In this document: in pieces, positions 4,380-53,789 of the stretch
How the letters are laid out: each line of letters begins with the position of its first letter
How positions within the stretch are numbered: position 1 is the stretch's first letter
Origin: Leifsonia poae
GTDB taxonomy: Bacteria > Actinomycetota > Actinomycetes > Actinomycetales > Microbacteriaceae
Direction: 5' to 3'
Length of the DNA: 64,000 bases
NCBI RefSeq assembly: GCF_027921845.1
Contig: NZ_BSEN01000002.1
Span: 1 to 64,000, forward strand
Made by a program: the position numbers and the translations under genes
Notes under the pieces: model-generated
The model's input: the letters and a program-made list of their open reading frames with translations, nothing else
Database searches by the model: none
Told to the model about the DNA's origin: nothing

Positions 4380-6596
4380 TCAGCGCTTGGCGCGCGCCGG
4401 AACCTTCTTCGTCTCCGTCGGCGGCTTCTCACCGGGCATCGGCGAGCCGCCGGTGCCCGACGGCGACGCCGGGGTCTGGCCTGCGTTCACCGGCGTTCCG
4501 GTGACCACCGGGATGACCGCGGGACCCGTCGCCGACCCGGCACCACGTGCACCGTGACCGTGCGTGTGACCCGTCGTCTTCGACGCCGGCTCGAGCGGTC
4601 GGCGCGCGACCGGCCGCACCGGCTCGCCGCGGCGGTCCTGACCAGGCAGTGGGCGGGAACGCCGGCCGTAGATGAGCGACGACGAGTCGAGCAGCCAGGG
4701 CACGAGCGCGACGGTCACGCCGTGGCACAGCATCAGCTGCTGACGGATGCGGTGGGCGCGGTGATTGTGCAGCAGCGACTCCCACCAGTGGCCGACGATG
4801 TACTGCGGCAGGTACACCGTGACGACCTCGGAGCCGTGCTCCTCGCGGCGGTGCTTCAGGTACTTGATCAGCGGGATGCCGAAGTCGCGGTACGGCGACT
4901 CGATGATCGTCAGCGGCACATGGATGTTCTGCTCGATCCACTGCTTCTGCAAGTGCTCGGTCGACTCGTCGTCGATGGACACGTGGACGGCCTCGATGGA
5001 GTCGTGCCTGGCCGCGATCGCATAGTCGAGCGCCTTCAGCGCCGGCTTCTGCATCTTGCCGACGAGCACGATGGCGTGGTCGCCGCGGCTGCCGAAGGTG
5101 GTGACCGGGTCGACCTCGATCTCCTTCTCCACGTCGCGGTAGTAGCGGTTCACGCCGAGCATGAGCAGCCACAGGATCGGCATGAAGATGAACACCAGGT
5201 AGGCGCCGTGGGTGAACTTGGTGATCGTCACGACGATCAGCACGACCGCGGTGAGGAACGCGCCGAAGGCGTTGATGCAGAGGCTGCGCACGATGCTCGA
5301 GCGCTCGCCCGACGGCACATTTCCGGATCGCAGCAGGCTGATCCAGTGCTTGACCATGCCGGACTGGCCCAGCGTGAACGACACGAACACGCCGATGATG
5401 TAGAGCTGGATGAGCTGGGTCAGGTTCGCGCGGTACACGAGCAGCAGCACGGTGGCGGCGAGCGCCAGCACGATCATCCCGTTCGAGTAGACGAGGCGGT
5501 CGCCGCGCGTGTTCAGGGACTTGGGCGCGTACGAGTCGCGTGCCAGCACGGAGCCGAGCAGCGGGAATCCGTTGAAGGCCGTGTTGGCCGCGAGGAGCAG
5601 CACGACCGCGGTCGCCGCCTGCACCACGAAGAACAGGATCGAGTTGTTGCCGAAGGTCGCGGCGGCGATCTGCGCGATCAGGCTGCGCTGCGGCGACGTG
5701 GCGCACTCGGCCCAGCCCTGCAGGTCGCACGGGTTCTCGGCGTAGTGCACGCCGCTGATGAGGGCGACCGCCGTGAGGCCGGCGAACAGCACGATCGCGA
5801 TGCCGCCCATCAGGCCCAGCGTCTTGCGCGCGTTCTTGACCTTGGGGGTGCGGAAGGCCGGCACGCCGTTGGCGACCGCTTCGACGCCGGTCAGCGCACT
5901 ACAGCCGCTCGAGAAGGCACGCAGCAGCAACAGGATCATCGCCGCCTGCCCGAGGTTCGCCGCGTTCACGCTGTACTGCGCCGACTCGGCGACCGGCGCG
6001 TCCCCGAACGCGGTGCGGATCAGCGCGGTGACGATCATCAGGAAGATCGAACCGATGAAGAGATAGGTCGGGATGGCGAACGCCTTGCTCGACTCGCGCA
6101 CGCCGCGCAGATTGACCGCGGCGATCACGATGACGAAGAGCACGGCGAGCTCGACGCGCCAGTCGCCGAGGAAGGGGAGCGCGGAGATGATGTTGTCGAC
6201 ACCGGACGCGACCGACACGGCCACGGTCAGCACGTAGTCGACCAGCAGAGCGGAGGCGACGACGAGGCCGGCCTTCTCGCCGAGGTTCTTGTGGGCGACC
6301 TCGTAGTCGCCACCGCCGGAGGGGTACGCCTTCACCAGCTGCCGGTAAGAGAGGACCACCGTCACCAGCAGTACGACGACCGCCGCGGCCACCCAGGGCG
6401 CGAAGGTCAGGAACGCGAGCCCGCCGAGCAGCAGGATCATCAGCAGTTCCTGCGGCGCGTACGCCACAGACGAAAGTGCGTCGCTGGCGAAAATGGGTAG
6501 GGCGAGGTGCTTCGGGAGTAGCTGTCCTTCGAGTTTTTCACTCGGAAGCGGGTCGCCGATCAACCACCGCTTCGGGGATCTCCCCTCATTTGTCAC
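4380..6596 (-). CDS. kimA: KimA-like potassium uptake transporter (APC superfamily)
   Basis: This 738-residue protein has about twelve membrane segments and a cytoplasmic C-terminal domain. It matches Bacillus KimA (YdaO) closely in recognisable stretches: LPIFASDALSSVAYAPQE, LSYRQLVKAYPSGGGDYEV, NLGEKAGLVV and RAFSSGCSALTGVEAVANG. KimA is a high-affinity proton-coupled K+ importer inhibited by c-di-AMP. A Pro/Thr/Gly-rich tail of about 70 residues follows the family domain. I chose the GTG at 6596 because homologous sequence begins just after it and a -10 box lies 8 nt upstream, so the message is probably leaderless; a start further upstream is possible in frame. No c-di-AMP riboswitch is visible, unlike in Bacillus. 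Confidence 0.85.
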   Translation of the reverse strand: MTNEGRSPKRWLIGDPLPSEKLEGQLLPKHLALPIFASDALSSVAYAPQELLMILLLGGLAFLTFAPWVAAAVVVLLVTVVLSYRQLVKAYPSGGGDYEVAHKNLGEKAGLVVASALLVDYVLTVAVSVASGVDNIISALPFLGDWRVELAVLFVIVIAAVNLRGVRESSKAFAIPTYLFIGSIFLMIVTALIRTAFGDAPVAESAQYSVNAANLGQAAMILLLLRAFSSGCSALTGVEAVANGVPAFRTPKVKNARKTLGLMGGIAIVLFAGLTAVALISGVHYAENPCDLQGWAECATSPQRSLIAQIAAATFGNNSILFFVVQAATAVVLLLAANTAFNGFPLLGSVLARDSYAPKSLNTRGDRLVYSNGMIVLALAATVLLLVYRANLTQLIQLYIIGVFVSFTLGQSGMVKHWISLLRSGNVPSGERSSIVRSLCINAFGAFLTAVVLIVVTITKFTHGAYLVFIFMPILWLLMLGVNRYYRDVEKEIEVDPVTTFGSRGDHAIVLVGKMQKPALKALDYAIAARHDSIEAVHVSIDDESTEHLQKQWIEQNIHVPLTIIESPYRDFGIPLIKYLKHRREEHGSEVVTVYLPQYIVGHWWESLLHNHRAHRIRQQLMLCHGVTVALVPWLLDSSSLIYGRRSRPLPGQDRRGEPVRPVARRPLEPASKTTGHTHGHGARGAGSATGPAVIPVVTGTPVNAGQTPASPSGTGGSPMPGEKPPTETKKVPARAKR

Positions 6597-48320: not shown

Positions 48321-48881
48321 TCAGGTCTCGGCGGCGAGCGATGCGACGATCCGGTCGAGCCCCCATCGCCAGGCCGATTCGACGTCGCCGCCGAGTCCGA
48401 ACAGCCCGCCGAGCTCCATCGTGATGAACCCGTTCGCCCAGGCCGTCACGAGGCGCGCCCCGTCCAGAGCGTGATCGGGGCCGGTCAGCGCCGCGACGGC
48501 GTCGAGGAGCGGGGCGACACTGCGCACCACCGCCGCCTGCTCCGGCCGGGGCGCGCCGTGTGCCGCGAACACGAGTCCGAAGCCGACGGGATGCTCGTGC
48601 GCGAACCTCCGCAGGGCGTCCGCCTGCTCCGCGAGACGACGGGTGGGATCGGCGTGTTCATCCAGCGCCTCGAGGCGGGCGGTGAGGTCGCCCAGGGTCG
48701 CCGCGACGACGAGCGCCAACAGCTCGCGCCGGTCGCGGACCCGCTTGTACAGCGACGGCGCACGCACGCCGACCCGTTCCGCGACGGCCTGCATGGTGAG
48801 GCCGTCCGGGCCGGCGCGCTCGACGAGCTCACGGCCCGCAGCGACGATCGCAGCGCGCGACGTCTTGTCCGGAGTCGGCAT
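48321..48881 (-). CDS. TetR-family regulator (WHG-domain type)
   Basis: A 186-residue TetR protein with helix-turn-helix LTMQAVAERVGVRAPSLYKRV near residues 28-48 and a C-terminal domain ending TAWANGFITMELGG, typical of the TetR_C WHG group. ATG 48881 follows GAGAGGAG. It is divergent from a metallo-hydrolase gene 38 nt away, and a GATAG/CTATC repeat lies in the gap. Confidence 0.9.
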   Translation of the reverse strand: MPTPDKTSRAAIVAAGRELVERAGPDGLTMQAVAERVGVRAPSLYKRVRDRRELLALVVAATLGDLTARLEALDEHADPTRRLAEQADALRRFAHEHPVGFGLVFAAHGAPRPEQAAVVRSVAPLLDAVAALTGPDHALDGARLVTAWANGFITMELGGLFGLGGDVESAWRWGLDRIVASLAAET

Positions 48882-48919: not shown

Positions 48920-49639
48920 ATGGAACTCGCACCCGGCCTCCACCGCATCGGCACTGACATCGTCGCGATCCATCTCGTCGTGACCGACGAGGGGATGACT
49001 CTCATCGACACCGGACTGCCCGGGCATTACGGCGACCTGAAGAAGGAACTCGCCACTCTGGGCCGCCCGCTCTCCGACATCAAGGGGATCGTCCTGACGC
49101 ACGGGGACAGCGATCACACCGGCTTCGCCGAGCGGCTCCGTGCTGAGCTCGGCATCCCGGTCTATGTCGGTGCCGGCGACGCGGCGCGGGCGATGGGCGA
49201 GAAACCGCCGTCGCCGCCGAAGGACCCCCGCCGGCTGGGACCCATGCTCGGCTTCTTCGCGTACGCGATCAGCAAGGGCGGGGTGCGGATGCCTGCGGTG
49301 AAGGAGGTCGTGCCGGTCGACGACGGCGAGGTCCTCGCCTTGCCCGGCGCTCCCGTGATCATCGGGATGCCCGGCCACTCGCCCGGCAGCGTGGCGATCC
49401 ACGTGCCCGCGGTGCGCGCAGTGTTCGTCGGCGACGAGCTCACGACGCGAAGCGTGCTGACCGGCGAGACAGGACCGCAGCCGGCGCCCTTCACCGACGA
49501 TCAGGCCGCATCCTCCGCTTCGCTCGAGCGGCTGGCCGGACTCGACGTCGACTTCGTGGTCCCGGGTCACGGACCGGTGTGGACCCAGGGTGCGCCCGCA
49601 CTCGTCGCCGCGTACCGCGAGGCCGAGAAGCGGCGCTAG
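48920..49639 (+). CDS. MBL-fold metallo-hydrolase
   Basis: A 239-residue metallo-beta-lactamase-fold protein. The metal motif is THGDSDHTG (about 60-68; the usual HxHxDH has Gly-Asp-Ser between, first His60 and Asp65-His66 retained), with later ligands His in GMPGHSPGS, Asp in FVGDELTT, and His in VPGHGPV. Such proteins hydrolyse thioesters, lactones or phosphodiesters. TetR control and leaderless start (ATG 48920) suggest induction by a small molecule, possibly the substrate. The HGDSDH variant shifts one metal ligand from His to Asp. Confidence 0.85.
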   Translation: MELAPGLHRIGTDIVAIHLVVTDEGMTLIDTGLPGHYGDLKKELATLGRPLSDIKGIVLTHGDSDHTGFAERLRAELGIPVYVGAGDAARAMGEKPPSPPKDPRRLGPMLGFFAYAISKGGVRMPAVKEVVPVDDGEVLALPGAPVIIGMPGHSPGSVAIHVPAVRAVFVGDELTTRSVLTGETGPQPAPFTDDQAASSASLERLAGLDVDFVVPGHGPVWTQGAPALVAAYREAEKRR

Positions 49640-49692: not shown

Positions 49693-49740
49693 GAATTGTG
49701 CCTGTTGCAGTTTTGTGACGATCGACGCAGAATTGCAACA
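49693..49740 (+). promoter_or_regulatory. Promoter and candidate operator of the kynurenine operon
   Basis: A -35-like TTGCAG (49705-49710), 17-bp spacer and CAGAAT (49728-49733) lead to the ATG at 49740 with 6 nt between, so kynA may be leaderless. TGTTGCA (49703-49709) and TGCAACA (49734-49740) form perfect 7-bp arms around this promoter, and GAATTG occurs twice (49693 and 49730). A Lrp-like or PaaX-family regulator could bind. Confidence 0.5.
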
Positions 49741-50600
49741 TGACCGCCGATGACAACACGCGCGCGTTCGATCCCGACATCGTCACCGACTTCCGTGAGC
49801 GGATGTCGTACGGTTCGTACCTCGACCTCCCCACCCTGCTGAGCGCTCAGAAGCCCGTGAGCGTCCCCGAGCATCACGACGAGCTGCTGTTCATCATCCA
49901 GCACCAGACGACCGAGCTCTGGCTCAAGCTCGTGCTGCACGAACTGGAGTCGGCGCGCGACCTGCTCCGCGCCGACGAACTGGCCCCGGCACTCAAGCGG
50001 ATCGCACGGGTCAAGCACATTCAGAAGACGCTGACCGAGCAGTGGTCGGTGCTCGCCACGCTCACACCGACCGAGTACGCCGAGTTCCGCGGCTTCCTCG
50101 GCAACTCGTCCGGCTTCCAGTCGTACCAGTACCGGGCCGTCGAGTTCGTGCTCGGCAACAAGAACCGCCGCATGCTGAGCGTGTTCGAGAGCGATCCGGT
50201 CGCCCAGGCGCTCCTCGCCCAGCTGCTCGAGGCGCCGAGCATCTACGACGAGTTCCTCCGTTACCTCGATCGGGCCGGCTTCGACATCCCGCCGAGCGTG
50301 CTCGACCGCGACGTGACCGAGGCGTACACGTTCCACCCCGAGCTCGTCCCCGTCTTCCGCGACATCTACGAGAACGCCGCCGACCACTGGGCCGAGTACG
50401 AGGCATGCGAGGAACTCGTCGACCTGGAGGACAACTTCCAGCTCTGGCGGTTCCGGCACCTCAAGACGGTGCAGCGCACGATCGGCATGAAGACGGGCAC
50501 GGGCGGATCGACCGGCGTCTCGTTCTTGCAGAAGGCGCTCGAGCTCACGTTCTTCCCCGAGCTGTTCGCCGTGCGAACGGAGATCGGCGCGCCACGATGA
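49740..50600 (+). CDS. kynA: Tryptophan 2,3-dioxygenase
   Basis: This 286-residue haem enzyme inserts O2 into tryptophan to give N-formylkynurenine. His55 (IIQHQTTELWLK) and His240 (FRHLKTVQRTIG) match the active-site and haem-ligand histidines, and GTGGSTGVSFL binds the substrate amino group. Length is standard for the bacterial enzyme. It starts the operon kynA - amidohydrolase - kynU - PaaX; its stop overlaps the next ATG by 4 nt. No ribosome site is visible before ATG 49740. Confidence 0.97.
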   Translation: MTADDNTRAFDPDIVTDFRERMSYGSYLDLPTLLSAQKPVSVPEHHDELLFIIQHQTTELWLKLVLHELESARDLLRADELAPALKRIARVKHIQKTLTEQWSVLATLTPTEYAEFRGFLGNSSGFQSYQYRAVEFVLGNKNRRMLSVFESDPVAQALLAQLLEAPSIYDEFLRYLDRAGFDIPPSVLDRDVTEAYTFHPELVPVFRDIYENAADHWAEYEACEELVDLEDNFQLWRFRHLKTVQRTIGMKTGTGGSTGVSFLQKALELTFFPELFAVRTEIGAPR

Positions 50601-51679
50601 CGGACGCGACCGCCGACGGCCGCACCATCGGCGTCGACGCAGCGTGGGACGGCGACGGCTTCCGTGGCCGCACCGTCTTCACGATCAGCGGCGGCATGCT
50701 CCAGCTCGCCGAAGCGGATCCGGCCGACACTACCGACCCGGCCGGCCCTGCTCGGCGCGCCGATCACGAACTCGGCGGCGCTCTCATCCCGCACCTGACC
50801 GACCACCACACGCATCTCGGACTCACCGATCCCGCCGTGATGTTCGCCAACGGCATCACCGACGCCGTCGACCTCGGCTGGATCCCCGAGGTCGCCGCAG
50901 TGTGGCTCGACGCCGGTCCCGGGCATCCGGCCGTCGCGATCGCCGGGGCGCTGCTCACCGCTCCCGGCGGGTATCCGGTCAATGCCGGCTGGGGACCTCC
51001 CGGGTCGTCGGCCGAGCTGAGGAACGCGGATGATGCGGTGGCTGCGGTTCGTGAACAGGTCATGTGGGGAGCCTCGCGGATCAAGGTCACGCTCAACACC
51101 CAGTCGGGACCAACCGTGGACGACGCGACCCTCGCCGCGATTGTAGAGGAGGCTCACGCGCACGGCCTCCCGGTGACCGTCCATGCGCAGGGCGATGGGC
51201 AGACCGCTCGTGCGATCGCCGCCGGCGCCGACCAGCTGGCCCACACCCCGTTCACCGAGCGGGTCGACGACACGATCATCCGGCGATGCGTCGACGCCGG
51301 CGTGAGCTGGGTCTCGACCCTCGACATCCACGGCTGGGGACGGCCAACCACCGAACTCGCGACCGCGATCGAGAACCTGCGCCGTTTCGCCGACGCGGGC
51401 GGACGCATCCTGTACGGCACGGACCTCGGTAACGGTCCGCTTGCGACCGGAGTGAACGCGCGCGAGCTCGCCGATCTCGCCGCCGCCGGCCTCGACGGCA
51501 CCGCTCTCGTACGCACCATCGCCGGGCCCGATCCGCTCACTCGCGCACCGTTCGGGCCCCGCTTCGCCTGGCTGCCCACCACCCCGCCCGCCGACGAGGC
51601 CGACCTGCCCGCCTGGCTGGCCACCGCCCGCGGCGCCACCGCCTCGACGATCACCACCATCCCCGGAGGAGACGCATGA
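50597..51679 (+). CDS. Amidohydrolase-superfamily enzyme in the kynurenine operon
   Basis: A 360-residue binuclear-metal amidohydrolase: HxH at His71/His73 (DHHTH), the bridging Lys163 (RIKV), His196 (VTVHAQGD), His216 (LAHTPF) and Asp276 (GTDLGNG). All catalytic ligands are present, of the imidazolonepropionase/prolidase-like kind. It is translationally coupled to kynA on one side and kynU on the other. The pathway step between those enzymes is hydrolysis of N-formylkynurenine, and no KynB or AFMID-like gene is in the window. I infer this enzyme performs it; a role on a different amide is the alternative. Confidence 0.82.
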   Translation: MTDATADGRTIGVDAAWDGDGFRGRTVFTISGGMLQLAEADPADTTDPAGPARRADHELGGALIPHLTDHHTHLGLTDPAVMFANGITDAVDLGWIPEVAAVWLDAGPGHPAVAIAGALLTAPGGYPVNAGWGPPGSSAELRNADDAVAAVREQVMWGASRIKVTLNTQSGPTVDDATLAAIVEEAHAHGLPVTVHAQGDGQTARAIAAGADQLAHTPFTERVDDTIIRRCVDAGVSWVSTLDIHGWGRPTTELATAIENLRRFADAGGRILYGTDLGNGPLATGVNARELADLAAAGLDGTALVRTIAGPDPLTRAPFGPRFAWLPTTPPADEADLPAWLATARGATASTITTIPGGDA

Positions 51680-52950
51680 CCGACCGCACCGACCCCACCG
51701 ACCTCGCCGACCTCACGGACCATCTGGCCGCCGCCCGCGCCGCCGACGCCTCCGACCCGCTCGCCGGCTACCGCACGCGTTTCGCCGGCATCGACGACGG
51801 CTCAAGCGACGTCGTCGCGTACCTCGACGGCAACTCCCTCGGCCGTCCGACCCGGGCGAGTATCGACCGCATCCAGCGCTTCCTCGTCGAGGGCTGGGGG
51901 AACCGGCTCATCCGGGGATGGGACGAGGAGTGGATGGAGCTGCCGTTCACGATCGGCGACGCGATCGCCGACACCGTGCTCGGCGCCGCACACGGCCAGA
52001 CCTTCATCGGCGACTCGACGACCGTGCTCCTCTACAAGCTGGCACGCGCGGCCGTCGACGCCCGCCCGGGCCGCACCGAGATCGTCGTCGACACCGACAA
52101 CTTCCCCACCGACCGCTACGTCCTCGACGGCATCGCGCGCGAGCGCGGCCTGACCCTGCGCTGGATCCAGGCCGACACCGAAGCCGGCGTCACGCCCGAG
52201 CAGGTCGCCGAGGTGGTGGGCCCGGAGACCGCGCTCGTCGTGCTGAGCCACGTCGCGTACCGCTCCGGTTTCCTCGCCGACGTGCCCGCGATCACGCGCA
52301 TCGCCCACGACGCGGGCGCGCTCGTGCTCTGGGATCTCTGCCATTCCGTCGGCTCCGTCCCTCTCGAACTCGACGCGTGGGGCGTGGACGTCGCGGTCGG
52401 CTGCACCTACAAGTACCTCAACGGCGGGCCTGGCTCGCCCGCCTTCGGCTACGTGCGCGCTGACCTGCAGGGCGAGCTGACGCAGCCGATCCAGGGCTGG
52501 ATGAGCGCCGCCGACGTGTTCCTGATGGGTCCCGAGTTCCAGCCGGCCACGGGCGCCCGCCGCTACCTCAGCGGCACCCCCGCGATCGTCGGGATGCTCG
52601 CGATGCAGGACACGGTCGCGATGATCGCCGAGTGCGGGATGGATGCCGTGCGCGCCAAGTCCATCGCGCTCACCGAGTTCGCCATCGCCCTCACCGACGA
52701 CTGGCTGCGTCCCCTGGGCGTCACGGTCGCGAGCCCGCGGGATGCGGAGCGTCGCGGCGGCCACGTGACCGTGAACCATCCGGCGATGCGCGAGGTGACC
52801 GCGCTGTTGTGGGAGCGCGACGTCATCCCCGACTTCCGCGACCCGAACGGCCTGCGCATCGGTCTCTCACCGCTGAGCACGAGCTTCGAGGAGACGTATC
52901 TGGGCGTGGCCGCGATCCGCGACGCCCTCGGCGACCTCACGAATGAGTGA
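51676..52950 (+). CDS. kynU: Kynureninase
   Basis: This 424-residue fold-type I PLP enzyme cleaves kynurenine to anthranilate and alanine. It has YLDGNSLGRPT (49-59), STTVLLYKLA, DLCHSVGSVPLEL with the PLP-contacting Asp220, and the Schiff-base Lys246 in CTYKYLNGGPGSPAF. Length is standard. The first 20 residues are an Asp/Thr/Leu repeat (TDPTDLADLTD). ATG 51676 overlaps the amidohydrolase stop by 4 nt. Its 3' end lies in a 34-bp duplicated segment. Confidence 0.96.
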   Translation: MTDRTDPTDLADLTDHLAAARAADASDPLAGYRTRFAGIDDGSSDVVAYLDGNSLGRPTRASIDRIQRFLVEGWGNRLIRGWDEEWMELPFTIGDAIADTVLGAAHGQTFIGDSTTVLLYKLARAAVDARPGRTEIVVDTDNFPTDRYVLDGIARERGLTLRWIQADTEAGVTPEQVAEVVGPETALVVLSHVAYRSGFLADVPAITRIAHDAGALVLWDLCHSVGSVPLELDAWGVDVAVGCTYKYLNGGPGSPAFGYVRADLQGELTQPIQGWMSAADVFLMGPEFQPATGARRYLSGTPAIVGMLAMQDTVAMIAECGMDAVRAKSIALTEFAIALTDDWLRPLGVTVASPRDAERRGGHVTVNHPAMREVTALLWERDVIPDFRDPNGLRIGLSPLSTSFEETYLGVAAIRDALGDLTNE

Positions 52951-52985
52951 GCGACCGCACGAATGCGACCTCACGAATGAGTGAG
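52931..52985 (+). repeat. 21-bp direct repeat across the kynU/PaaX junction
   Basis: The sequence gcgacctcacgaatgagtga occurs at 52931-52950 and again at 52965-52984, with one further matching g. The period is 34 bp. Copy one contains the kynU stop and an ATG in frame with a 13-codon ORF; copy two contains the likely start of the PaaX gene. Confidence 0.85.
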
Positions 52986-53789
52986 GGCCGCGAAGACCTC
53001 GAGGCGCGCACCGGCAGCTCGACCGCGCTGCTGCGCACCGTCGTCGGGAGCGTTCTGCGTCCGCTCGGCGGCTGGATGACCGCATCCGGTGCCGTCGCCC
53101 TGCTCGACGCCCTCGACGTGCCGGCCAGCACGGCGCGCTCAAGCCTCACCCGGCTGTGCGCCCGCGGGGTGCTCGTGCGCGAGCCGCGCGGAGCGGTCGC
53201 CGGGTACGCGCTCGACCCGGCCGCGGTCCCGATGCTCGAGCGCGGCGACCGCCGGATCTTCGACACCCGGCCCTCCGGCGACGACGGCTGGTGCCTCCTC
53301 TCGTTCTCGATCCCGGAGCACCGCCGCGACCAGCGCCATCAGCTGCGCCGCCGGCTCGCCGCCCTGGGCTGCGGCACCGTGGCCGACGGACTCTGGATCG
53401 CCCCGCAACACCTCGAGTCTGAGATCGACCGGATGCTCACCGAGCTCGCTCTGCAGCAGGAGTGCGTGCTCTTCGCCGACGCCCGCGCACGCGGTCCGCT
53501 CGGCAGCGGTCTGGCGCTCTGGTACGACCTCGACCGCATCCGGGCCGCCCACGAGACGTTCCTGGAACGCTTCGCCTCGGCCGCGCATCCGGTCGACGAT
53601 CCGGCCGCGTTCGCCCAGTGGATGCGCGTGCTCGACGAGTGGCGGGTGATCCCGTACCTCGACCCCGGGCTTCCGGCGGCCGCCCTCCCCGACGACTGGC
53701 CCGCCGCCGCCAGTGCCGCCCGCTTCGCCGAGCTGCGCGCCGCCCTGGAGCCGCGGGCGCTGGCCTACGCGAGGCGCGTCGCGCTCTGA
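52977..53789 (+). CDS. PaaX-family transcriptional regulator
   Basis: A 270-residue protein: winged helix (STALLRTVVGSVLRPLGGWM, ALDVPASTARSSLTRLCARG), the PaaX central domain (RIFDTRPSGDDGWCLLSFSI, EHRRDQRHQLRRRLAALGCG) and C-terminal domain. PaaX proteins repress aromatic degradation genes by sensing a CoA thioester. As the last gene of the kyn operon it is a candidate regulator of tryptophan catabolism. An in-frame GTG at 52947 overlaps the kynU stop and would add ten residues; ATG 52977 begins closer to the conserved part. Confidence 0.85.
   Translation: MSEGREDLEARTGSSTALLRTVVGSVLRPLGGWMTASGAVALLDALDVPASTARSSLTRLCARGVLVREPRGAVAGYALDPAAVPMLERGDRRIFDTRPSGDDGWCLLSFSIPEHRRDQRHQLRRRLAALGCGTVADGLWIAPQHLESEIDRMLTELALQQECVLFADARARGPLGSGLALWYDLDRIRAAHETFLERFASAAHPVDDPAAFAQWMRVLDEWRVIPYLDPGLPAAALPDDWPAAASAARFAELRAALEPRALAYARRVAL

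Follow-up and report, generated by a model that had tools for sequence, protein, structure and literature searches.

In the 64,000-nucleotide stretch of Leifsonia poae DNA analysed here (the window: positions 1 to 64,000 of contig NZ_BSEN01000002.1, assembly GCF_027921845.1), the gene for an amidohydrolase-superfamily protein (AH) lies between kynA, which encodes tryptophan 2,3-dioxygenase (TDO), and kynU, which encodes kynureninase (Table 1). KynA converts tryptophan to N-formylkynurenine, and KynU converts kynurenine to anthranilate and alanine. Judged from its sequence and genomic setting, AH very probably deformylates N-formylkynurenine, and would thus be a metal-dependent formamidase (EC 3.5.1.9) with its origin in the amidohydrolase superfamily, separate from those of KynB and the AFMID-type serine hydrolases. 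The reaction is a known one, and the enzyme family proposed for it is new. The initial annotation had raised the idea that AH is an unrelated solution to the formamidase step; it is now supported computationally by the linkage of AH to TDO and kynU, by the lack of a canonical KynB, and by AFMID-like replacement in sister lineages. KynB and the alpha/beta-hydrolase KFase are the kynurenine formamidase types named in the accessible part of the KynB study (PMC4243253).

Conservation of AH with TDO and kynU

Among 27 genomes of the same genus, AH was found in 24 and TDO in the same 24, both being missing from G006, G017, and G022. The two genes are neighbors in all 24, and kynU follows in 23, the remaining locus lying at a contig end. 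An ATGA sequence occurs at the AH stop codon in 26 of 26 loci inspected, including that of the window (in one, L025, the contig stops before the position of kynU). A scan of one-genome-per-species contigs by peptide patterns identified 370 relatives of AH, and the best 80 of these 370 loci, two of which (L095 and L096) come from one genome, were kept for analysis of gene neighborhoods. The order TDO-AH-KYNU is present in 59 of the 80, in hosts that include Leifsonia, Cryobacterium, Agromyces, Cellulosimicrobium, Isoptericola, Rhodococcus, and Saccharopolyspora as well as an Embleya record. The others comprise AH-KYNU without TDO (10 loci, one at a contig start), TDO-AH without KYNU (four, two at contig ends), TDO-KYNU-AH (one, Actinoplanes), AH with neither gene (three), and AH with a distant class V aminotransferase in reverse orientation (three). 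Conservation of the AH junction and of the triad exceeds chance, because ATGA is found at the AH stop in all 26 loci and the triad in 59 of 80. The position between kynA and kynU to which the initial annotation drew attention is therefore genus-wide (23 of 24, with kynU seen) and extends well beyond the genus.

Surveys of larger samples gave a similar picture; 10 candidates were scored per genome (in most genomes of the class, and in the Microbacteriaceae), so that absences are not strict. Among 199 Microbacteriaceae, AH (E<=1e-50) was detected in 56, TDO in 69, and both in 48, of which 46 have the two genes adjacent on the same strand. Among 197 genomes of the class, AH of any strength (E<=1e-20) was detected in 28. 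Strong matches (>290 bits) occur in nine, including the genome of the window (G000); all nine contain TDO, which is adjacent in eight. This count of strong matches excludes weak AH-like matches in 10 genomes (E 1e-21 to 1e-35), which are distant kin, and mid-strength relatives in nine (E 1e-56 to 1e-63).

Metal site, fold, and a possible mechanism

AH matches Pfam Amidohydro_1 with 36 bits (cutoff 25), and its other Pfam matches are likewise to amidohydrolase models only. The full HxH-Lys-His-His-Asp set of binuclear amidohydrolases that had been read from the sequence is present as H71xH73, K163, H196, H216, and D276, and these residues are identical in all 53 aligned sequences (the window AH, L027, and 51 of the 80 kept loci). 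D92, Y126, W132, and N260 are invariant as well. The invariance of D276 is partly due to selection, since this residue lies within one of the peptide patterns used to find the loci; the other five ligands lie outside the patterns. H245 was also considered as a necessary active-site residue and was rejected, as the TDO-linked AHs of Agromyces carry Thr or Ala at this position. The AlphaFold model of AH (pLDDT 94) is a TIM barrel with the (beta/alpha)8 fold of amidohydrolases, whose closest folds are arginine carboxypeptidase, Cc2672, and ochratoxinase. The score of AH against the Xaa-Pro dipeptidase family NF051886 is 46.7 bits, below the curated cutoff of 500. No match to the cyclase family (PF04199), to an alpha/beta-hydrolase Pfam model, or to the KynB model TIGR03035 was found at E<=1e-3. 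The Pfam matches and the predicted amidohydrolase barrel bear out the earlier statement that the protein is of neither the KynB nor the AFMID type.

These features allow a reaction scheme to be outlined. After KynA has oxidized tryptophan to N-formylkynurenine, the metal center of AH, whose ligands would be H71/H73, K163 (probably carboxylated), H196, H216, and D276, would activate a water molecule; the water would attack the carbonyl of the formyl group in the N-aryl formamide, with release of formate and kynurenine. KynU would then split kynurenine into anthranilate and alanine. The PaaX-type protein encoded downstream of kynU would probably regulate the operon via the element upstream of kynA.

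Lack of a canonical KynB

No KynB scoring over the curated 223-bit cutoff of TIGR03035 was found in 60 relatives or in the 197 class genomes, although TDO is present in 121 of the latter. That the test can succeed is shown by Limnohabitans, where the KynB encoded in a kynB-kynU-kynA cluster reaches 258 bits. The genome of the window contains one PF04199 protein (contig C4:100650-101285; L001 1321-2397), which is unlinked to the kyn operon and scores 49.9 bits. In its sequence NTGTYLDSPYH, Asn and Tyr replace two histidines of the motif HTGTHxDxPxH, and its open reading frame bears a long N-terminal extension. This protein was rejected as a KynB on the grounds of its location, its degenerate motif, and its low score. 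A search of the genome for KynB and AFMID homologs, proposed in the initial annotation, thus returned this degenerate protein and no relative of the alpha/beta-hydrolases c18 (E<=1e-8) or c10 (E<=1e-25) described below.

AFMID-like hydrolases in the place of AH

Of the 40 regions inspected, 39 surround a TDO gene; 38 of these come from genomes that lack strong AH and one comes from G240, whose AH locus (L261) is the remaining region. Gene order was taken from the 27 regions in which the simple gene caller recognized TDO; L261 is among the other 13. In genome family f37 (large genomes, probably Streptomyces), TDO-KYNU is followed by the alpha/beta-hydrolase c10, an order found in four loci. Overall, c10 occurs in five of the 40 regions, and a different alpha/beta-hydrolase, c18, occurs near TDO in three, including a KYNU-TDO-methyltransferase cluster (L232). 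On a Streptomyces plasmid, TDO and a relative of c18 overlap by 4 bases. The second-best Protein Data Bank (PDB) match of c18 is 4e11, named kynurenine formamidase (5.5e-15). The c10 and c18 sequences inspected contain HGGxW, which we take to be, together with GxSxG, a hallmark of AFMID.

A comparable arrangement exists within the Microbacteriaceae. Nine genomes have a full-length TDO (>380 bits) and no AH, and in five of them c10 is present in the TDO/KYNU cluster; the copies of G268, G332, G354, and G391 carry HGGxW, and that of G307, upstream of TDO, carries HGGYY. The remaining 12 TDO-only genomes have a low-scoring TDO (<260 bits). Across the 69 TDO-containing genomes, c10 (E<=1e-25) was detected in none of the 48 with AH vs. 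six of the 21 with TDO only (Fisher 4.5e-4, shared ancestry being ignored), a count in which four of the six positives had contributed to the c10 model and 13 candidates were scored per genome, so that absences are not strict. This distribution has the expected direction and suggests that AH and c10 may exclude each other from the same place in the operon. In the class, c18 is present in nine of the 197 genomes, none of them with strong AH, although three (G075, G088, and G246) have distant AH-like matches; here 10 candidates were scored in most genomes, and absences are again not strict. As for Leifsonia itself, its four genomes among the 199 sampled gave no c10 match at E<=1e-25, and c18 was rejected because the matches are generic (<=45 bits), with none in G000 at E<=1e-8. 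Overall, the pattern resembles the replacement of one formamidase with another.

It is likely, taking these observations together, that Actinomycetota possess a third, independent formamidase family built on the amidohydrolase barrel, which has been exchanged with AFMID-like hydrolases in kyn operons while canonical KynB is largely missing and the step is misannotated or left open. The same joint reading makes it likely that the exchange has sometimes taken place within a single bacterial family.

Exceptions and alternative explanations

Several observations weigh against this proposal. Eight of the 56 AH-bearing Microbacteriaceae lack TDO, so the link between the two genes is not a strict one; five of the eight keep AH-kynU, and three have neither gene in the 8-8.5 kb fetched. 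The nine mid-strength relatives in the class have TDO on a different contig. Three congeners (G008, G010, and G026) have a cyclase with the sequence QSGTHVDAPFH about 7-8 kb from AH and 4-6 kb from the operon end (L282 4519-5187, L283 4325-4993, and L284 about 4517-5152). Five others (G009, G016, G019, G023, and G027) have a cyclase of 84-98 bits at a distant locus, below the KynB cutoff, and the four that were read (G016, G019, G023, and G027) contain the full motif HxGTHxDxPxH. The absence of KynB depends on a strict cutoff, and the degenerate cyclase of G000 may be a weak amidase, since a Gln-substituted homolog has weak isatin-hydrolyzing activity according to the accessible part of the report (PMC5341072).

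The formamidase role of the AFMID-like hydrolases c10 and c18 is itself one that we infer. The match of c10 to 4e11 is weak (9e-4), and its near-identical closest PDB entry is named carboxylesterase. Fifteen of 22 genomes with c10 contain neither TDO nor AH, and this, together with the model overlap, the 13 candidates per genome, and kinship among the genomes, makes the mutual exclusion suggestive rather than proof. G375 has a TDO-KYNU-PaaX operon without AH and an unlinked relative of c10, while G316 and G424 of the same genus have AH; in G036 and G323, which have a full-length TDO, neither AH nor c10 was found. In four genomes with low-scoring TDO that were fetched, kynU lies beside TDO and no match to AH, c10, c18, or KynB was found nearby. 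Because these genomes have no AH in the kyn cluster, another enzyme or spontaneous hydrolysis can serve for deformylation in some genomes.

The QSGTHVDAPFH cyclases stand next to genes that we take, from a look at the sequences, to be purL and ilvD, and their nearness to the operon probably reflects synteny rather than function. They were rejected as KynB proteins, as Gln replaces the first motif histidine and their scores are below the cutoff. Concerning the question of whether AH is conserved beside kynB in relatives, which would have told against AH, no cyclase over the KynB cutoff was found there, and the part of the answer that does not stand so cleanly is the presence of these three cyclases.

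The exceptions in gene content are unevenly distributed. On the AH tree, from which L088, L113, and the near-duplicates L096 and L105 were left out, the presence or absence of TDO beside AH requires at least six state changes; AH-kynU without TDO forms one Frigoribacterium clade plus scattered cases, and the Frondihabitans AH with neither gene is at the clade base. In Cellulosimicrobium arenosum (L152, just upstream of 5977), TDO is reduced to a C-terminal tail before AH-kynU, and it has been lost in this species, as the persistence of the tail indicates. In G378 (L296 3177-3611), one of the nine Microbacteriaceae counted above as having a full-length TDO and no AH, AH is truncated to 144 amino acids (aa) between TDO and kynU. 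Both loci are apparent cases of operon decay, with assembly error also possible. In Nocardia, a P450 gene comes after TDO-AH, and no kynU is present in the 13 kb of sequence covered.

A separate AH subfamily (L139, L146, L147, and L150), found in actinobacterial metagenome-assembled genomes, is not near TDO, has Leu at H245 in all four members, and in three of the four is accompanied by the reversed distant class V aminotransferase. It perhaps has a different substrate, and the nine mid-strength genomes of the class may belong to this type. The class also has TDO in another context: in L231, L246, L248, L251, L253, L256, L259, and L262, the gene directly after TDO encodes a protein of about 1,620-1,730 aa, a putative NAD-dependent glutamate dehydrogenase, and no kynU is among the neighbors shown.

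The units lacking TDO, namely the 10 AH-KYNU loci among the best 80 and the five such Microbacteriaceae, together with the peptidase-like amidohydrolases among the closest folds, lend some weight to an alternative in which AH hydrolyzes another N-acyl or peptide-like derivative of kynurenine or anthranilate that feeds KynU (e.g., N-acetylkynurenine or a kynurenyl dipeptide), and N-formylkynurenine is deformylated spontaneously or by an unrecognized enzyme. We regard this as unlikely: linkage to TDO dominates, with the triad in most of the kept loci and adjacency in nearly all AH- and TDO-containing Microbacteriaceae, TDO-AH also exists without kynU (L142 and L098), AFMID-like hydrolases hold the place of AH in sister operons, and the TDO tail of C. 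arenosum means that at least one TDO-less unit results from recent loss. TDO-AH and AH-kynU units share a single reaction, the conversion of formylkynurenine to kynurenine. There is a very small chance that AH is a general amidohydrolase without a role in the pathway, deformylation being left to a PF04199 cyclase or a promiscuous esterase, as the single PF04199 gene of the genome and the TIGR03035 matches below the cutoff in 24 of the 27 congeners might be taken to suggest; but the cyclase of the genome lacks two motif histidines, a cyclase of similar score occurs in most congeners, including G006, which has no TDO, none was found in G003 despite its TDO and AH, and different genera have kept both the AH junctions and the metal site. 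A role for AH downstream of KynU, or in processing a side product (e.g., N-formylanthranilate or isatin), is least probable of all, for although every candidate substrate is an aryl amide that could fit such an active site, L142 combines AH with TDO and P450 without kynU, so that no KynU product is expected from the cluster, and the gene order TDO-AH-KYNU matches the order of the reactions.

Operon structure and the PaaX-type regulator

The exact coordinates of the open reading frames agree with the kynA-amidohydrolase-kynU operon described at the outset, with ATGA overlaps at 50597-50600 and 51676-51679. In addition, kynU is joined to the gene for a PaaX-type regulator by a GTGA overlap, and the operon is thus longer by one gene. 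It seems to start after the gene for a metallo-beta-lactamase-fold hydrolase, whose stop codon lies 100 bases before kynA.

Table 1. Features of the kyn operon and its upstream neighbors in the window
Feature	Coordinates	Strand	Description	Basis
TetR-type regulator gene	48321-48881	-	Divergent, 5' of kynA	
Metallo-beta-lactamase-fold hydrolase gene	48920-49639	+		
Conserved element	49704..49739	+	GTTGCA ... GTGACGATCG (49715-49724) ... ATTGCAAC; ends at kynA start codon; putative promoter/operator	Sequence reading
kynA	49740..50600	+	TDO, 286 aa	TIGR03036 over cutoff (401.6 bits; cutoff 390.7); Pfam Trp_dioxygenase
AH	50597..51679	+	Amidohydrolase-superfamily protein, 360 aa; proposed N-formylkynurenine formamidase	Pfam Amidohydro_1, metal ligands, fold, operon conservation
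kynU	51676..52950	+	Kynureninase, 424 aa	TIGR01814 just below cutoff (231.6 bits; cutoff 246.4); Pfam Aminotran_5 and KYNU_C (kynureninase C-terminal domain) over their own cutoffs
PaaX-type gene	52947..53789	+	Transcriptional regulator, 280 aa; probable operon regulator	Pfam PaaX, PaaX_M, and PaaX_C over cutoffs

The conserved element in front of kynA is similar in most Leifsonia relatives that have the PaaX-type gene and is missing in L084, L086, and L090, all of which lack that gene. The motif GTGACGRYCG, which was picked post hoc, occurs on either strand with at most one mismatch in 22 of 28 loci with the PaaX-type gene vs. four of 33 without it (L073-L151; loci shorter than 9,300 bases were left out if they had no PaaX match). 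The PaaX-type protein may therefore be the regulator of the kyn operon. Since no separate ribosome-binding site is obvious before kynA in 49704-49739, the kynA transcript may be leaderless. A search for consensus sequences of sigma-70 promoters and of terminators gave no match.

Implications and comparison with known systems

If the proposal is correct, a third unrelated enzyme family would be assigned to a textbook step of tryptophan catabolism, which would address the gap left by the absence of an over-cutoff KynB from the class and would give a function to an "amidohydrolase" that has 370 relatives in the genome collection scanned. A metalloenzyme and a serine hydrolase replacing each other within an operon, for a single reaction, would also be a clean case of non-orthologous displacement.

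The proteins closest to AH in structure, namely the group of Cc2672, arginine carboxypeptidase, Xaa-Pro dipeptidase, and ochratoxinase, share only 19-22% identity with it and are found in other genomic surroundings. Phenylurea hydrolase B and molinate hydrolase, both of which are pesticide hydrolases, share 17-18% identity. No literature assigning the family of AH to the formamidase step was found in a search that left subscription journals mostly outside. The nearest precedent is the mycemycin pathway of Streptomyces, where, in the accessible part of the report, an "amidohydrolase" (MymD/MyeD) is proposed to deformylate (5-Cl-)N-formylkynurenine between TDO and kynureninase; deletion of myeD abolished the mycemycin product, and MymD formed inclusion bodies (PMC5867642). 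MymD/MyeD has 513 aa vs. 360 aa in AH, and the two are likened here by the published description, as far as it is accessible, and not by sequence. In the available text on actinomycin, the "arylformamidase" AcnG (326 aa) is encoded in a cluster with TDO and kynureninase genes (PMC6521150); it may be of the c18 alpha/beta-hydrolase kind, because the KYNU-TDO-methyltransferase cluster carries c18.

KynB resembles AH in its position in the kyn operon and in the proposed reaction, with metal-dependent hydrolysis of a formamide as a shared idea; by contrast, the sequences and folds are unrelated. According to the accessible part of its description, KynB carries binuclear Zn, its metal-binding histidines are His50, His54, and His161, and its authors state that it matches no known amidase or amidohydrolase (PMC4243253). 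The AFMID/KFase type likewise shares the proposed reaction with AH, and the c10 and c18 hydrolases hold the corresponding place in TDO clusters that lack AH. The AFMID/KFase enzymes are, however, serine hydrolases of another fold, whereas AH is predicted to be a TIM barrel equipped with a set of metal ligands.
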